64,000 nt of DNA from an uncultured Eudoraea sp. Lineage in GTDB: Bacteria; Bacteroidota; Bacteroidia; Flavobacteriales; Flavobacteriaceae. Below the pieces are notes generated by a model. The model had not been told where the DNA came from. It made no database searches and was given only the letters and a program-made list of their open reading frames with translations. The stretch is from assembly GCF_947260015.1 (NCBI RefSeq), contig NZ_CAMYOM010000001.1:84456-148455 (forward strand), given 5' to 3'. A program made the translations under genes and the position numbers. Positions 50,590 to 58,164 of this stretch are shown here, in pieces (the first letter of the stretch is position 1; each line of letters starts with the position of its first letter).

Positions 50590-51039
50590 CTAAAGAATCT
50601 GGGCAGCGTGATCTTTGGTTTTAACTTTGTCAATAACCTTTAGAACGAAACCGTTTTCGTCAACAATAAAGGTCTTTCTGTGAATACCATCGTATTCCCT
50701 GCCCATAAATTTTTTAGGACCCCAGACTCCAAATGCATTAATTACGGTATGATCTTCATCGGCCAAAAGTGGAAAAGGAAATTCGTATTTATTCCTAAAA
50801 CCAGCTTGTTTTTTTTGAGAATCCTCACTGACCCCCAATAGTTCATAGCCTTTTGACTGCAGTTCTGCATAATTATCCCTAAGATTACAGGCTTCAGCAG
50901 TACATCCTGGGGTATTAGCCCTCGGATAAAAAAATACAACTAACTTTTTACCGGAATAATCGCTTAATTTTACCAAATTGCCATCCTGATCAACAGATGA
51001 AAAGTCAGGGACTTTATCACCTTCTTTAAGTGTGTTCAT
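50590..51039 (-). CDS. bcp: Thioredoxin-dependent thiol peroxidase (BCP family)
   Basis: GDKVPDFSSVDQDGNLVKLSDYSGKKLVVFFYPRANTPGCTAEACNLRD. Confidence 0.95.
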   Translation of the reverse strand: MNTLKEGDKVPDFSSVDQDGNLVKLSDYSGKKLVVFFYPRANTPGCTAEACNLRDNYAELQSKGYELLGVSEDSQKKQAGFRNKYEFPFPLLADEDHTVINAFGVWGPKKFMGREYDGIHRKTFIVDENGFVLKVIDKVKTKDHAAQIL

Positions 51040-51094: not shown

Positions 51095-51757
51095 ATGACC
51101 AAATCGGAAAAAGTATCCTTTGCAATAAAAGTACTGAAGGAATTATATCCTGAAATACCCGTACCGTTAGAACATAAAGATCCATATACATTGTTAATCG
51201 CCGTATTATTATCGGCCCAAAGTACTGATGTACGTGTAAACCAGATAACACCTATATTATTTGCAAAAGCCGACAATCCCTACGATATGATTAAAATGTC
51301 TGTTGAGGAAATAAAGGAAATCATTAAGCCGGTAGGACTTTCACCTATGAAATCGAAGGGAATCCATGGCTTATCCGAAATATTGATAGAAAAGTACGAG
51401 GGTAATGTTCCATCGGAATTAAGCTTATTGGAAGAATTACCGGCAGTGGGTCATAAAACTGCAAGTGTAGTGGTCTCTCAGGCATTTGGTATACCTGCTT
51501 TCCCGGTTGATACCCATATTCACCGTTTGATGTATCGTTGGGGTTTCTCCAATGGTAAAAATGTGGTTCAAACCGAGAGAGATGCAAAGAGGTTATTTCC
51601 CAAAGAAATATGGAACGATTTGCATCTTCAAATTATTTGGTATGGTCGTCAATATTCCCCTGCCAGAGGCTGGGATCTAGACAAAGACTTAATAACCAAA
51701 ACGATAGGGAGAAAAAAAGTATTACACGACTATTATAAAATAAAAAAGGCCCGCTAA
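51095..51757 (+). CDS. nth: Endonuclease III-like DNA glycosylase/lyase
   Basis: AVLLSAQSTDVRVNQITPILF, LPAVGHKTASVVVSQAFGIPAFPVDTHIHRLMYRWG. Confidence 0.9.
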   Translation: MTKSEKVSFAIKVLKELYPEIPVPLEHKDPYTLLIAVLLSAQSTDVRVNQITPILFAKADNPYDMIKMSVEEIKEIIKPVGLSPMKSKGIHGLSEILIEKYEGNVPSELSLLEELPAVGHKTASVVVSQAFGIPAFPVDTHIHRLMYRWGFSNGKNVVQTERDAKRLFPKEIWNDLHLQIIWYGRQYSPARGWDLDKDLITKTIGRKKVLHDYYKIKKAR

Positions 51758-51766
51758 CTGCGGGCC
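51742..51766 (-). terminator. Terminator closing sigma/microprotein unit 1 (minus strand)
   Basis: Minus-strand GGCCCGC-agtta-GCGGGCCTTTTTT; overlaps 3' end of nth. Confidence 0.7.
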
Positions 51767-51774
51767 ATCTTGTC

Positions 51775-51918
51775 TTAATTCAAAGTTGTTTCAAATTTGA
51801 ATGTCTTGTACCTCGTAATTCTGAAGGACCTGGAATAATTCAGTAAGAACTGTATTGTTTCAGGACTGGTTTTGGCCAGTTTACAAGCGTTTTGTTCTTC
51901 AGAGTAAATTTTTTCCAT
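51775..51918 (-). CDS. 47-aa microprotein A (MEKIYSEEQNACKLAKTSPETIQFLLNYSRSFRITRYKTFKFETTLN)
   Basis: Manually translated, below the ORF-track size cutoff; gapless paralogue of microprotein B; terminator immediately downstream. Confidence 0.75.
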   Translation of the reverse strand: MEKIYSEEQNACKLAKTSPETIQFLLNYSRSFRITRYKTFKFETTLN

Positions 51919-51941
51919 ATTATTATAGTATTATTATTACT

Positions 51942-51962
51942 AATAACGCAACTAATATGGAA
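51942..51962. promoter_or_regulatory. Conserved spacer element, copy 1
   Basis: AATAACGCAACTAATATGGAA; 20/21 identical to 53107-53127. Confidence 0.5.
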
Positions 51963-51998
51963 ATATTGCTCTGATGTATTCCTTTGTATTCCTTGCTC

Positions 51999-52580
51999 TT
52001 AATTTGTTAAAACAATATTATTCTTTTCTATTATCTTTCTGAGGTTTATAAGTGCATATCGCATTCTTCCTAAAGCTGTATTTATGCTAACTCCGGTATT
52101 TTCAGAAATCTCTTTAAAACTCATGTCCTTGTAAATTCGCATAAGAAGAACTTCTTTTTGGTCATCAGGTAATTCTTCAATCAAAGATCCAAGATCACTA
52201 TCTATCTGATCTTTAATAATCTGCTTTTCTGCATTAAGCTTGTCGTCACCTATAACTGAGAAAATATTAAAATCATCACTTCCTTCAAACTTAGGCATAC
52301 GCTTGTTCTTTCTAAAGTGATCAATAATCAAGTTATGTGAAATTCTCATTACCCATGGCAAGAATTTTCCCTCTTCACTATAAGATCCTTTTTTAAGGGT
52401 TTTGATTACCTTGATAAAGGTATCCTGAAAAATATCCTCAGTTATATCCCTGTCCATTACCTTGGAATAAATAAAGCTACTTATACGTTGGTTGTGTCTG
52501 TTTATAAGAACTTCAAGTGCTTTTTCGTCGCCACTGATATAATCTCTTACTAATTCTGAATCATCAATTTTAAATTCCAT
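51999..52580 (-). CDS. RNA polymerase sigma-70 factor, ECF-like (copy 1)
   Basis: ITEDIFQDTFIKVIKTL, FLPWVMRISHNLIIDHFRKNKRMP, MSFKEISENTGVSINTALGRMRYAL. Confidence 0.93.
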   Translation of the reverse strand: MEFKIDDSELVRDYISGDEKALEVLINRHNQRISSFIYSKVMDRDITEDIFQDTFIKVIKTLKKGSYSEEGKFLPWVMRISHNLIIDHFRKNKRMPKFEGSDDFNIFSVIGDDKLNAEKQIIKDQIDSDLGSLIEELPDDQKEVLLMRIYKDMSFKEISENTGVSINTALGRMRYALINLRKIIEKNNIVLTN

Positions 52581-52880
52581 AATCGGTAGTATTTTTTGGT
52601 TAATATAAAGGAGCTTCTTTTTGGTGGCCCTTGGGTTAATAGTTTAAATATTTTAGTAGCTATGATTTCATAATTATACTTTAAAAGTATCTAAATAGCG
52701 AGGTCTGAGAAAAACTATGTTGTCAAACCCCTGATTTTTGATGTCAAAGAGCGATTTAGCAATTTTAGACACAATAAATCCAAAATAAATTAGTTGCAAA
52801 TTGATTTTCCAGAAGCCTGAATATATCCCCGGTTTAGTTCGATTTAATTAAATAAGAGACTTTAGTAACTACCAGAAACT

Positions 52881-52911
52881 AAAAATCCCCTTGATGTATT
52901 ATCAAAGGGAT
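52881..52911 (-). terminator. Terminator closing sigma/microprotein unit 2 (minus strand)
   Basis: Minus-strand ATCCCtTTGAT-aatac-ATCAAgGGGATTTTT. Confidence 0.65.
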
Positions 52912-52942
52912 CAGTGTATATCCTAATAAAATGGGTATATGA

Positions 52943-53086
52943 TCAATTCAAATTATTTTCAAATGTAAGTCCTTTATGATTTACAATATTTAATGCCTTG
53001 GAATACTGAAGTAATAACTTTACACGCTCTGGTTTAACTTTTACAAGTTTGCATTTGTTTTGCTGTCTGGGGTAAATCTGTTCCAT
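52943..53086 (-). CDS. 47-aa microprotein B (MEQIYPRQQNKCKLVKVKPERVKLLLQYSKALNIVNHKGLTFENNLN)
   Basis: Manually translated; gapless paralogue of microprotein A in the same relative position; terminator downstream. Confidence 0.75.
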   Translation of the reverse strand: MEQIYPRQQNKCKLVKVKPERVKLLLQYSKALNIVNHKGLTFENNLN

Positions 53087-53106: not shown

Positions 53107-53127
53107 AATAACGCAACTAGTATGGAA
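53107..53127. promoter_or_regulatory. Conserved spacer element, copy 2
   Basis: AATAACGCAACTAGTATGGAA; 20/21 identical to 51942-51962. Confidence 0.5.
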
Positions 53128-53155
53128 CCATGTGTATTAATCGCTATAGAACCTA

Positions 53156-53737
53156 TTAATTCGTTAAAACAATATTATTCTTTTCTATGATTTTTCTTAG
53201 GTTAATTAAGGCATAGCGCATTCGTCCTAAAGCAGTATTAATACTTACTCCTGTATTTTCAGCTATTTCTTTAAAACTCATATCCTTATATATACGCATT
53301 ACCAGGACTTCTTTTTGATCATCTGGGAGTTCTTCTATTAATAATACAAGATCACTGTCTATCTGGTCTTTAATTAACTGTCTCTCTGCATCCAGTTTGC
53401 CATCACCCAAAACGGAAAAAATGTTAAAATCCTCACTACCCTCAAATTTGGGCATTCGTTTATTCCTTCTAAAATGGTCAATGATCAGATTATGAGCTAT
53501 TCGCATAACCCAAGGTAAAAACTTACCTTCTTCATTATAGGCGCCTCTTTTTAAGGTCCTTATTACCTTTATAAAGGTATCCTGAAAGATATCTTCAGCA
53601 ATAGCCCTGTCCAGGACCTTGGAATAAATAAAACTGGTAAGACGTTGATTGTGCTTGTTTATCAGCATTTCCAGGGATTTTTCATCCCCGCTAATGTAAT
53701 TCTGAACTAAAATTGAGTCCGCGACTTGTAGTTGCAT
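53156..53737 (-). CDS. RNA polymerase sigma-70 factor, ECF-like (copy 2)
   Basis: Gapless 193-aa alignment with copy 1, about 30 differences by eye; same sigma-2/sigma-4 motifs. Confidence 0.93.
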   Translation of the reverse strand: MQLQVADSILVQNYISGDEKSLEMLINKHNQRLTSFIYSKVLDRAIAEDIFQDTFIKVIRTLKRGAYNEEGKFLPWVMRIAHNLIIDHFRRNKRMPKFEGSEDFNIFSVLGDGKLDAERQLIKDQIDSDLVLLIEELPDDQKEVLVMRIYKDMSFKEIAENTGVSINTALGRMRYALINLRKIIEKNNIVLTN

Positions 53738-53933
53738 ACTAATTACTTTTTTGGTTAAACTTAGGGGCCTTTCTTTATGGAAAGGACTTTAGTTATTCAG
53801 GTTAATGCTCAAAAAAGTAATTTTCGCGTATAGGCGGGTTTTTTAGTTATTACGCTTCAAATATAGAAAAAATATATTTTCTCAAGTAAACAATGTTGTG
53901 ATATTGCAGAATTTAGTTGTAAAAGGCCACCTA

Positions 53934-53965
53934 TTGGTGTTTGAATTCAACATATCGTATCTTTG
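53934..53965 (+). promoter_or_regulatory. Candidate uvrA promoter
   Basis: TTG-N21-TATCTTTG, 17 nt before the probable ATG at 53983. Confidence 0.4.
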
Positions 53966-53982
53966 CCGACCTAAAGCAAGAA

Positions 53983-56763
53983 ATGTCTGCAATAACCGAG
54001 GTAGATCCAAAGAAAAATATAATAATCAAAGGGGCTAAACTGCATAATCTTAAAAATATTGATGTAGTTATTCCCAGAAATAAATTAATTGTTATTACTG
54101 GACTTTCGGGTTCAGGTAAGTCCAGTCTGGCTTTTGATACGCTCTACGCCGAAGGACAACGTCGTTATGTAGAAAGCCTTTCCTCATATGCCCGGCAATT
54201 CCTTGGTAAATTAGATAAACCCAAAGTAGATTATATAAAAGGTATAGCCCCTGCAATAGCCATTGAACAGAAGGTAAATTCCACAAATCCACGATCCACA
54301 GTGGGTACAACTACTGAAATCTATGACTATTTGAAGCTTCTCTATGCCAGAATTGGCAAGACCTATTCACCAATTTCCGGTAGAGAAGTTAAAAAGCATA
54401 ACGTAACAGATGTAATAAACCATGTAAAATCATTTGAAGAAGGTACCAAGCTCTTATTATTGGCTCCAATTGTTATTTCCAAAGACAGAGATCCGGTGAA
54501 ATCTCTACAATTGCTATCCAAACAAGGATATGCGAGGATAAAACATAATGGTACGGTTATCAGGATTGATGAATCACTAAAAGATATTGGTTATAATTTT
54601 GAATTGGTTGTAGATCGGATTATTAAGAAAGATGATGAGGATTTTCTTAATCGATTGGCCAACGCAGTGGATACTGCTTTTTTTGAAGGTAAAGGATACT
54701 GTTTTATTGAAGAAATCACTAATGGAACGGTAACCCAATTTAACAATAAGTTTGAAATGGACGGAATGGTCTTTATGGAACCTAACACACATCTATTCAG
54801 TTTCAATAATCCTTACGGGGCTTGTCCAAAATGTGAAGGATATGGTGATGTTATTGGCATAGATGAAGATCTTGTAATACCTAATTCGGGGTTGTCTGTA
54901 TTTGAAAATGCTGTATTTCCATGGCGAGGAGAGAGCATGAGTTGGTATAGAGATCAATTAGTGAATTCCTCTTATAAGTTTGATTTTCCTATCCATAAAC
55001 CTTGGTATCAACTTAATGAGGAGCAAAAACTATTGGTCTGGCAAGGTAATGAGCATTTTGTAGGAATAGATAAATTCTTCCGGCAATTAGAAGAAAAGAG
55101 TTATAAGATTCAAAATAGGGTAATGCTCTCCAGATATAGGGGTAAAACAAGATGCAACTCCTGCAAAGGGAAGCGCCTTAGAAAGGAAACCAATTATATC
55201 AAGATTGATAACAAATCTATTTCAGATCTTGTGGAATTGTCAATTGAAAACTTAATCACATTTTTTGACACACTTTCACTAAGTGAACACGACTTGCAGA
55301 TCGCAAAAAGATTATTAGCAGAAATCAAAACCAGACTAAGCTATTTGGATAAGGTTGGATTGAGCTATTTAACAATCAACAGAAAATCAAATACTCTTTC
55401 AGGTGGAGAAAGTCAGCGAATAAACCTGGCAACATCTCTTGGCAGTAGTTTGGTTGGATCTATGTATATCCTGGATGAACCCAGTATTGGCTTACATCCG
55501 AGAGATACAGAGAATCTCATAATGGTTTTAAAATCTCTCAGAGATTTAGGTAATACTGTTATCGTTGTTGAGCATGATGAAGATATAATGCTTGCAGCAG
55601 ATGAAGTTATTGACATTGGCCCGGAAGCTGGCACGCATGGAGGCGAGGTAGTGGCCCACGGACCTATGGCTGAAATCCTAAAATCATCCTCACTTACGGC
55701 AAGTTACCTGAATGGAACCATGGAAATTGAAATTCCCAAAAAACGCCGAACCTCCAATTTCTTTATTGAAATCAAAGGAGCCAGGGAAAACAATTTAAAG
55801 AATATTGATGTCACTTTCCCCCTTAATATGCTTACAGTAGTAACAGGTGTATCAGGAAGTGGGAAAAGTACATTGGTTAAAAAATTACTTTACCCAATAT
55901 TGCTTAAAGAAGTTGGTGGATATGGCGAAAAAGCAGGCCAATATACCGAAATGTCCGGAAAATTTCAATCTGTAAAAAACGTTGAGTTCGTAGATCAAAA
56001 TCCAATAGGAAGATCTTCTCGTTCAAATCCGGTCACTTATATTAAAGCTTATGATGACATCAGGGCATTGTTTGCCTCACAGAAATTGAGTAAACTCAGA
56101 GGTTATCAGGCCAAACACTTCTCCTTTAATGTAGATGGTGGTAGGTGTGAAAAGTGTAAGGGAGAAGGTGAGATTACTGTAGAAATGCAGTTTATGGCCG
56201 ATGTTCATTTAGAATGCGATACCTGTGGCGGAAGGCGTTTCAAGAAAGAAGTTCTGGAGGTAAAATTTGAAAATGCCAATATTGATGATATATTGAACAT
56301 GACCATAGATAATGCCATTGAATTCTTTGAAACTAATTTAAAAACTAAAATAGTTGGTAAATTACGACCACTGCAAGAGGTAGGTCTGGGCTATGTTACC
56401 TTAGGACAATCCTCTTCTACCCTTTCCGGTGGAGAGGCACAGAGGATAAAACTGGCTTCATTCCTTGTAAAAGGGACAACTAAAGAGAAGGCTTTATTCA
56501 TTTTTGACGAACCTACTACCGGGCTTCACTTTCATGACATTAAAAAGCTTTTAAAATCTTTTGACGCTTTACTAGAAAGGGGTCATTCTATTGTTGTTAT
56601 AGAGCATAATATTGAATTTATCAAATGTGCAGATTACATGATAGATCTTGGACCAGATGGAGGCGATAATGGTGGTGAGCTTATTGCTTTCGGAACTCCG
56701 GAAGAAGTTGCCTCCAAAACTAAATCTCATACTGCGCGTTATCTTCGTGAAAAGCTACTATAG
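53983..56763 (+). CDS. uvrA: Excinuclease ABC subunit A
   Basis: [75 protein letters not shown], CxxC zinc modules. Confidence 0.96.
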
Positions 56764-56943: not shown

Positions 56944-58164
56944 ATGAGAAATTTAATATTCATTTTTATGGCTCTTTTTTTAGGTACTGCGAGTACCATG
57001 GCAGCCACCGTGGAAGATAAGGTTGCAATACGCAATGCTTATCAATACAACAATTCCTTCATCTTTGTTGAAAATGGCATTACGTTTTCCGTTTATCCGG
57101 ATGGAGAATTCGATTTCTATATTAACAACCGTGTTAATGTAGGAGCTAATGTAAATTTCGGAAGTACCAACCTTACATTCAATTCAGGTTATGATTATAA
57201 TCCATATGTTCAATATGATGATTATGGTGCAGTTGTTCAAGTACAAAATGTACCGATCTTTTATGATTATTATGGACGTGTTAATCAAATTGGTGGTGTT
57301 GATGTATGGTACCGAAATGGTAGAGTGAGACGACTTGGTGGAATGAATGTCTATTATAATAACAGAGGTTATTATAGTAATTATACAGGATATGTTAACG
57401 TATATAACCAATATTATACATACAGACCCTATTACAGCTATTTCGTAAGACCTGCAGCTGGTTTCTGCCTGGTATACAATAACCCATACAGAAGATATTA
57501 CAACCCAGTTCGATATACTTATTACAGACCCTATCAATATAATTATAGGAGAGCCTATGCTAATGTGGGTCATCATTATAACAACCATAAAAACTACAAT
57601 AGGCGCAGCAAGGTATACAGGAATGATAAACGTGTGGTTGCCAGAGAAAATAATTCGCGCAGAGGCGATAGTTACAGAACCGGTAATTCAGTAAGAAATA
57701 CAAAAGCTGTTGCTCAAAGAGATAATAGAAGCAGTACTAAAAGAACTATAAACAGTACGACTGCGAACAGATCTAATAGAACAACTCCTAATAGTATGAA
57801 AAGAACTGTTGCAAACAATGGTAGAAATATTGAAAGTACTGCTGTTAGAAATGGAACTAAAAGATCTGCACGGTCTGCAACAAGCAGAACGGTAACAAAA
57901 AAGCAAGTTGCGGTAGCTCCAAGGAGTAAAACAGCACAGCGCAGCAGTAGTACCTATAACAGACCGGAAAGATCAGCAACGAAAAGCAGGACTGTTAGCA
58001 CTAAGACAGTAACAAAACGATCAGTTGCTTCTAAGCCTTCTGGTAGAAGTTCAGGAAGTGCAACAATTAAGAGGACAAGTACCGCAAATAGAACAGTAGG
58101 TAGAAGTCCTTCCAGGAATACCGGAAAAAGTAATAATACACGAAGCAGAAGTACAAAAATATAA
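56944..58164 (+). CDS. Secreted Tyr/Asn-rich protein with highly basic low-complexity C-terminal tail
   Basis: Signal peptide MRNLIFIFMALFLGTASTMAA; tandem YDYYGRVNQIGGVDVWY / YRNGRVRRLGGMNVYY units; R/S/T/N-rich tail. Confidence 0.65.
   Translation: MRNLIFIFMALFLGTASTMAATVEDKVAIRNAYQYNNSFIFVENGITFSVYPDGEFDFYINNRVNVGANVNFGSTNLTFNSGYDYNPYVQYDDYGAVVQVQNVPIFYDYYGRVNQIGGVDVWYRNGRVRRLGGMNVYYNNRGYYSNYTGYVNVYNQYYTYRPYYSYFVRPAAGFCLVYNNPYRRYYNPVRYTYYRPYQYNYRRAYANVGHHYNNHKNYNRRSKVYRNDKRVVARENNSRRGDSYRTGNSVRNTKAVAQRDNRSSTKRTINSTTANRSNRTTPNSMKRTVANNGRNIESTAVRNGTKRSARSATSRTVTKKQVAVAPRSKTAQRSSSTYNRPERSATKSRTVSTKTVTKRSVASKPSGRSSGSATIKRTSTANRTVGRSPSRNTGKSNNTRSRSTKI

Follow-up and report, generated by a model that had tools for sequence, protein, structure and literature searches.

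The class I anti-sigma factors RskA, RslA, ChrR and RseA are encoded beside the gene of their ECF sigma factor. Gene overlap is common in sigma/anti-sigma pairs, and the zinc motif Hx3Cx2C is optional in class I anti-sigma domains, about half of which have it. CnrY of Cupriavidus metallidurans (class II) is a very small, membrane-anchored anti-sigma module. In class I complexes helix 1 binds sigma4 and helix 4 binds sigma2 at the polymerase clamp surface, which is thought to block core binding, and the last helix of CnrY binds sigma2 in the same way as class I helix 4 (PMC7406223). EcfO-Reo and Das1-Dma1 of Bacteroides and Phocaeicola are sigma/anti-sigma pairs from the same phylum as the organism studied here (PMC13114119, PMC12596196).

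Here we analysed two 47-aa microproteins, A and B, encoded in a 64,000 bp stretch of DNA from an uncultured Eudoraea sp. (the window). Like the class I proteins, they belong to a family encoded beside an ECF sigma gene, and a long-form relative of the family shows the class I layout of helices 1-3 plus helix 4 in its AlphaFold model, with RskA, ChrR and RslA as its best, though weak, Foldseek matches. They differ from class I in their size, in having no helices 1-3, membrane segment or Hx3Cx2C motif, and in a hairpin that ends in Asn. CnrY is likewise very small, but it has two helices, one per sigma domain, and this likeness was drawn without sequence comparison. Reo and Dma1 span the membrane, whereas the microprotein family appears to be soluble and is far smaller; EcfO-Reo was ruled out as the same system because Reo spans membranes. 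SigP of P. gingivalis was also set aside as an orthologue of the sigma factor: its published promoter motif differs and no small partner is mentioned in the part of the published account available to us, although no direct comparison was made. RA0C_1534 of Riemerella, an oxidative stress sigma factor, is a possible relative, but only as a lead, its orthology not being established. We propose, with a probability of about 0.6, that A and B act as minimal, soluble anti-sigma factors in a sigma-driven feedback loop, their binding to sigma and its inhibition being inferred.

Results

Two sigma-microprotein cassettes between nth and uvrA

Both microprotein ORFs were found in the window letter for letter as the first-pass annotation had given them, the one of B being taken from an inner ATG (Table 1). 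Microprotein A starts 80 nt past the stop codon of sigma A and microprotein B 69 nt past that of sigma B, on the same strand in both cases. The two sigma copies contain only Sigma70 region 2 and region 4 in about 190 aa, with Pfam matches above the cut-off, as is required of ECF sigma factors. They share 162 of 193 residues (83%) and their silent sites are saturated. Because each microprotein lies 3' of its own sigma gene, the repeated unit is the whole sigma-microprotein cassette, located between nth (with bcp beyond) and uvrA. The names nth, bcp and uvrA are those that we presume from general knowledge of such sequences, and were not obtained from profile libraries. Elsewhere in the window, positions 56944-58164 hold an ORF of 406 aa whose middle is rich in Y and N and whose long tail is rich in R, S, T and K.

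Table 1. Features of the duplicated locus and its neighbours (positions in the window)
Feature	Positions	Strand	Description
bcp-like peroxiredoxin gene	50590..51039	-	ORF, class-wide synteny; conserved neighbour
nth-like endonuclease III gene	51095..51757	+	ORF, class-wide synteny; convergent neighbour
Terminator after microprotein A	51742..51766	-	7-bp all-GC stem and T run; shared with convergent nth
Microprotein A	51775..51918 (51918..51775)	-	47 aa, ATG to stop; second cassette
ECF-type promoter of microprotein A	51944..51969	-	GCAATA-N15-CGTTA
ECF sigma factor A	51999..52580	-	193 aa; Sigma70_r2 E 4e-13, Sigma70_r4_2 E 1e-10
Terminator-like hairpin after microprotein B	52881..52912	-	12-pair stem and T run
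Microprotein B	52943..53086 (53086..52943)	-	47 aa, ATG to stop; first cassette
Corresponding element of microprotein B	53109..53134	-	CACATG-N15-CGTTA; -35 part diverged, -10 part kept
ECF sigma factor B	53156..53737	-	193 aa; Sigma70_r2 E 1.7e-15, Sigma70_r4_2 E 4.5e-11
Housekeeping-type -7 element TAnnTTTG	53858..53867	-	upstream of sigma B; TATATTTG
uvrA	53941..56763	+	ORF, synteny; divergent neighbour; start as listed, real one possibly further in

The microproteins are coding genes of an uncatalogued family

A and B had been described as two paralogues of an uncatalogued family, a view borne out by the absence of any matching Pfam or NCBIfam model for the 47-aa proteins and by the relatives, which support coding. 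The two proteins are identical at 23 of 47 residues and their genes differ at 15, 15 and 24 first, second and third codon positions, so that the substitution test proposed between the copies favoured coding, but only weakly when taken alone. The relatives gave a clear answer. In homologue pairs with at least 60% amino acid identity, 30, 18 and 52% of the differences fell on codon positions 1, 2 and 3, and close pairs had a median dN of 0.089 against a dS of 0.58, indicating purifying selection. Homologues were matched in 126 of 151 sampled genomes of the same family, none of the matches containing an internal stop; the ORF also lies directly 3' of sigma in 80 of 80 loci. The refutation set beforehand, stops or frameshifts in relatives, was thus checked and did not overturn the coding claim. 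A 70% identical orthologue of A occurs within the same genus, and the start codon is ATG in all 98 homologues from the fetched loci. The clear third-position excess and the lack of internal stops in relatives settle the coding status: A and B are real coding genes.

Two details of the first-pass annotation held for the pair and not for the family. The Cys common to A and B (Cys12) is not conserved family-wide, since only 52 of 98 homologues have any Cys, and the shared length of 47 aa is not fixed, the 98 homologues measuring 46-50 aa within the family and others being longer elsewhere. Constraint is instead strongest on the core helix ETIxFLLNYSKAL and on the C-terminal Asn. This Asn is the last residue in 167 of 168 distinct homologues, compared with 17 of 488 other long ORFs of the same loci. 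Since its codons AAT (86) and AAC (81) are used about equally, it is, as judged from codon usage, the residue and not the DNA that is kept. The sigma proteins also often end in LTN, with Asn last in 118 of 164 distinct ORFs, less strictly than the microproteins. Mimicry of the sigma C-terminus by the microprotein (both often LxN; LLNYSK versus LINLRK) was considered and dropped, there being no profile signal for it.

An ECF-promoter transcript of F. psychrophilum has been catalogued as the small RNA Rfp11 (PMC9723704), and whether it is identical with the microprotein gene is undetermined. The idea that the transcript is a regulatory RNA carrying an incidental ORF can nevertheless hardly be sustained, because the substitutions follow codon structure, the terminal Asn is kept through either codon, and an Rfam search of the window returned no match. 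Phage and plasmid collections gave no match either. We found no description of the family in the literature, in a search confined to an open library, so that absence is not proven.

Conservation, linkage to sigma and duplication

The iterated profile search that had been suggested traced the family through the class Bacteroidia: profile A1 found homologues in 168 of 298 genomes of the order and in 93 of 296 of the class (class and family labels being the search tool's own). In distant lineages the order uvrA, sigma and microprotein, nth and bcp is often intact. When loci were located by the sigma protein alone, the microprotein lay directly 3' of sigma in all of the best 80 loci from named genomes, which include Maribacter, Arenibacter, Flagellimonas, Christiangramia, Aquimarina, Winogradskyella and Tenacibaculum. 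They carry 90 microprotein copies, each with the terminal Asn. Adjacency to an ECF sigma gene, a criterion for class I anti-sigma factors, is thus met in these loci and by class-wide synteny. Related genomes contribute to the synteny and motif counts given here, which are not counts of independent events.

Twenty genomes without a single-sequence microprotein match were re-examined by profile, which recovered clear copies in about eight of them. In five loci (L313, L315, L317, L318 and L320) the sigma gene is followed by a decayed microprotein that keeps the core helix (e.g. IKRILAFSKA) and has lost the terminal Asn. No recognisable microprotein was found beside sigma in L321, nor in L323 (sigma more divergent), and five of the 20 genomes gave neither a sigma match at E<=1e-30 nor a convincing microprotein. 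Degenerate or missing copies were confined to a few genomes of about 1.6-2.2 Mb, G016 remaining unresolved. In most cases, therefore, a genome has either both genes or neither, the exceptions lying in these 1.6-2.2 Mb genomes.

Each sigma copy at the 27 double loci is accompanied by a microprotein of its own. In trees whose branch support was unexamined, the second-copy sigmas formed one clade together with one first-copy and three single-copy intruders, and the first-copy microproteins of the double loci one clade with a single-copy intruder. A single old tandem duplication that made both cassettes would be the simplest reading of these trees. Covariation between sigma and microprotein was confounded by clade: the pair with the highest mutual information (34-17) seems to reflect a difference between clades, and its signal is gone when only the double loci are considered.

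The tight pairing and the separate copy for each paralogue would suit any dedicated partner of sigma, for instance a Crl-like positive cofactor that stabilises it or aids core binding and so provides positive feedback. We regard such a role as improbable, because the long-form relatives described below resemble inhibitors and not activators, and the persistence of sigma without a recognisable microprotein in L321 and L323 is easier to understand if the microprotein is dispensable for sigma activity.

Promoters of the microprotein and sigma genes

The motif NCAATA-N13..18-CGTT was present upstream of 122 of 168 distinct homologues, against 1.44 expected in shuffles, and the spacing between CAATA and CGTT was 15 in 103 of the 122 strict matches. 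Microprotein B is not among the latter, as its element did not match the strict motif. CAATA-N15-CGTT is conserved class-wide, even in GC-rich genomes and where no sigma gene is adjacent, and may be compared with the promoter type assigned to ECF factors in the start-site map of F. psychrophilum (PMC9723704). That it is recognised by the adjacent sigma factor is inferred from its position. In 12 of 192 cases, L164-L169 among them, the sigma gene too is preceded by the ECF-type motif. The element upstream of sigma B corresponds to the TAnnTTTG -7 consensus quoted in PMC7366714.

A genome-wide search for ACAATA-N15-CGTTA showed no clear excess over a reversed-pattern control, so the regulon could not be defined; many of the hits were one recurring, probably coding, sequence. 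Two further observations concern these regions. A second ACAATA-N15-CGTTA site with a TTAC-TTTGTAA-like spacer occurs in three genera (G039:C44:211335, G074:C3:197224 and G055:C3:805425), and GCCT directly precedes the microprotein ATG (GCCTATG) in many distant lineages, though not in Flavobacteriaceae (e.g. L154, L163, L171, L173, L177, L179).

In loci L149, L159, L171, L172, L175 and L324-L326 the microprotein gene immediately precedes nth on the same strand, frequently with bcp as the next gene, and no sigma gene was found near it in the fetched stretch. That the promoter is mostly kept there, and that the microprotein has an ECF-type promoter of its own, would fit a protein that is merely an output of the sigma regulon and acts elsewhere without binding sigma, for example by aiding Nth or the peroxiredoxin against oxidative damage. 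We consider this unlikely, although it deserves to be kept in mind: most of the class links the microprotein to sigma, nth is convergent and not co-transcribed with it, and the long forms, whose genes overlap that of sigma, resemble anti-sigma domains.

Predicted structure of the short form and its long relatives

AlphaFold predicted a single short helix (residues 19-30) and a beta-hairpin for the 47-aa form, with no long TM-like helix, in agreement with the earlier statement that a TM segment is lacking. Foldseek searches with this model gave nothing above noise, so that no sequence or fold match of its own was found for the short form in Pfam, NCBIfam or Foldseek. The bundle of helices 1-3 with helix 4 on a linker is absent from the 47-aa models, being seen only in the model of the long form L344, and the zinc motif Hx3Cx2C is absent from the aligned sequences.

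In one small lineage (f18) the protein is extended at its N-terminus and measures 86-89 aa. The alignment built from it (A4) matched in 157 of 296 class genomes, many of the matches being 76-83 aa proteins in the same place (e.g. MIKTFTQDDLIRYLYHETTEKETQEI...). These long forms (76-89 aa) at the same locus have three extra N-terminal helices, and the microprotein profile aligns to their last 35 or so residues, that is, helix 4 and the C-terminus. In hhalign the microprotein scored a probability of 97.1 (E 7.8e-11) against A4 and 94.9 (E 4.4e-8) against A5, and L364 carries both halves, an N-terminal part and a hairpin ending in LN. Profile comparison thus demonstrated that the helix and C-terminus of the microprotein are homologous to the end of the 76-89 aa proteins.

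The f18 long form was modelled with helices at 7-14, 20-32, 34-55 and 60-71 plus a hairpin. Its best PDB match by E-value and probability was RskA bound to SigK (4nqw_B, probability 0.72), followed by probability, among the matches listed, by ChrR (2q1z, 0.57, rmsd 1.1 over 48 columns) and RslA (3hug, 0.44, rmsd 1.2 over 42 columns); all E-values were above 0.9 (0.9 to 5). The NCBIfam anti-sigma family NF052375 was the family most often matched, 8 of 29 long forms aligning to its N-terminal part, the best E being 2.1e-5 and the 16-25 bits far below its cut-off of 100. At each of ten loci inspected, the start codon (ATG) of the long form falls within the last part of the sigma gene, giving an overlap of 26-83 nt. 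The different lines of evidence point the same way, and no single one of them is conclusive; the resemblance of the long forms to class I anti-sigma domains, resting on models and sequence comparison, is suggestive but not established.

Discussion

The short form has no helices 1-3 and hence no sigma4-binding helix 1, which counts against an anti-sigma function. Since the window proteins retain the equivalent of helix 4 without helices 1-3, they may be minimal anti-sigma factors that cover sigma2 only. In the mechanism that we propose, each microprotein would pair with the ECF sigma factor whose gene directly precedes its own. Transcription of the sigma gene would start at a housekeeping-type promoter, and sigma in its active state would drive the internal CAATA-N15-CGTT promoter, so that more microprotein is produced, in proportion to sigma activity. 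The conserved helix (19-30) would dock on region 2 of sigma in the manner of class I helix 4, keeping sigma off core RNA polymerase and damping the response. The two cassettes would then be separate sigma/anti-sigma pairs that diverged after the old tandem duplication. From the neighbours nth, bcp and uvrA, the stress sensed is likely to be oxidative or DNA damage.

A broader hypothesis, which we hold tentatively and at slightly less than even odds, is that the microproteins form a class-wide family of single-helix anti-sigma factors, derived from a class I domain by loss of the three-helix bundle, in which the near-invariant C-terminal Asn would be at work. If true, this would help to explain the scarcity of recognised anti-sigma neighbours for Bacteroidetes ECF factors. 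For one sigma factor that is deeply conserved, the family offers a concrete anti-sigma candidate, which the profile libraries used here fail to detect. If the anti-sigma reading is right, it would show how small an anti-sigma domain can be, and the duplicated cassettes would be a natural source of matched sigma/inhibitor pairs with which to test specificity.
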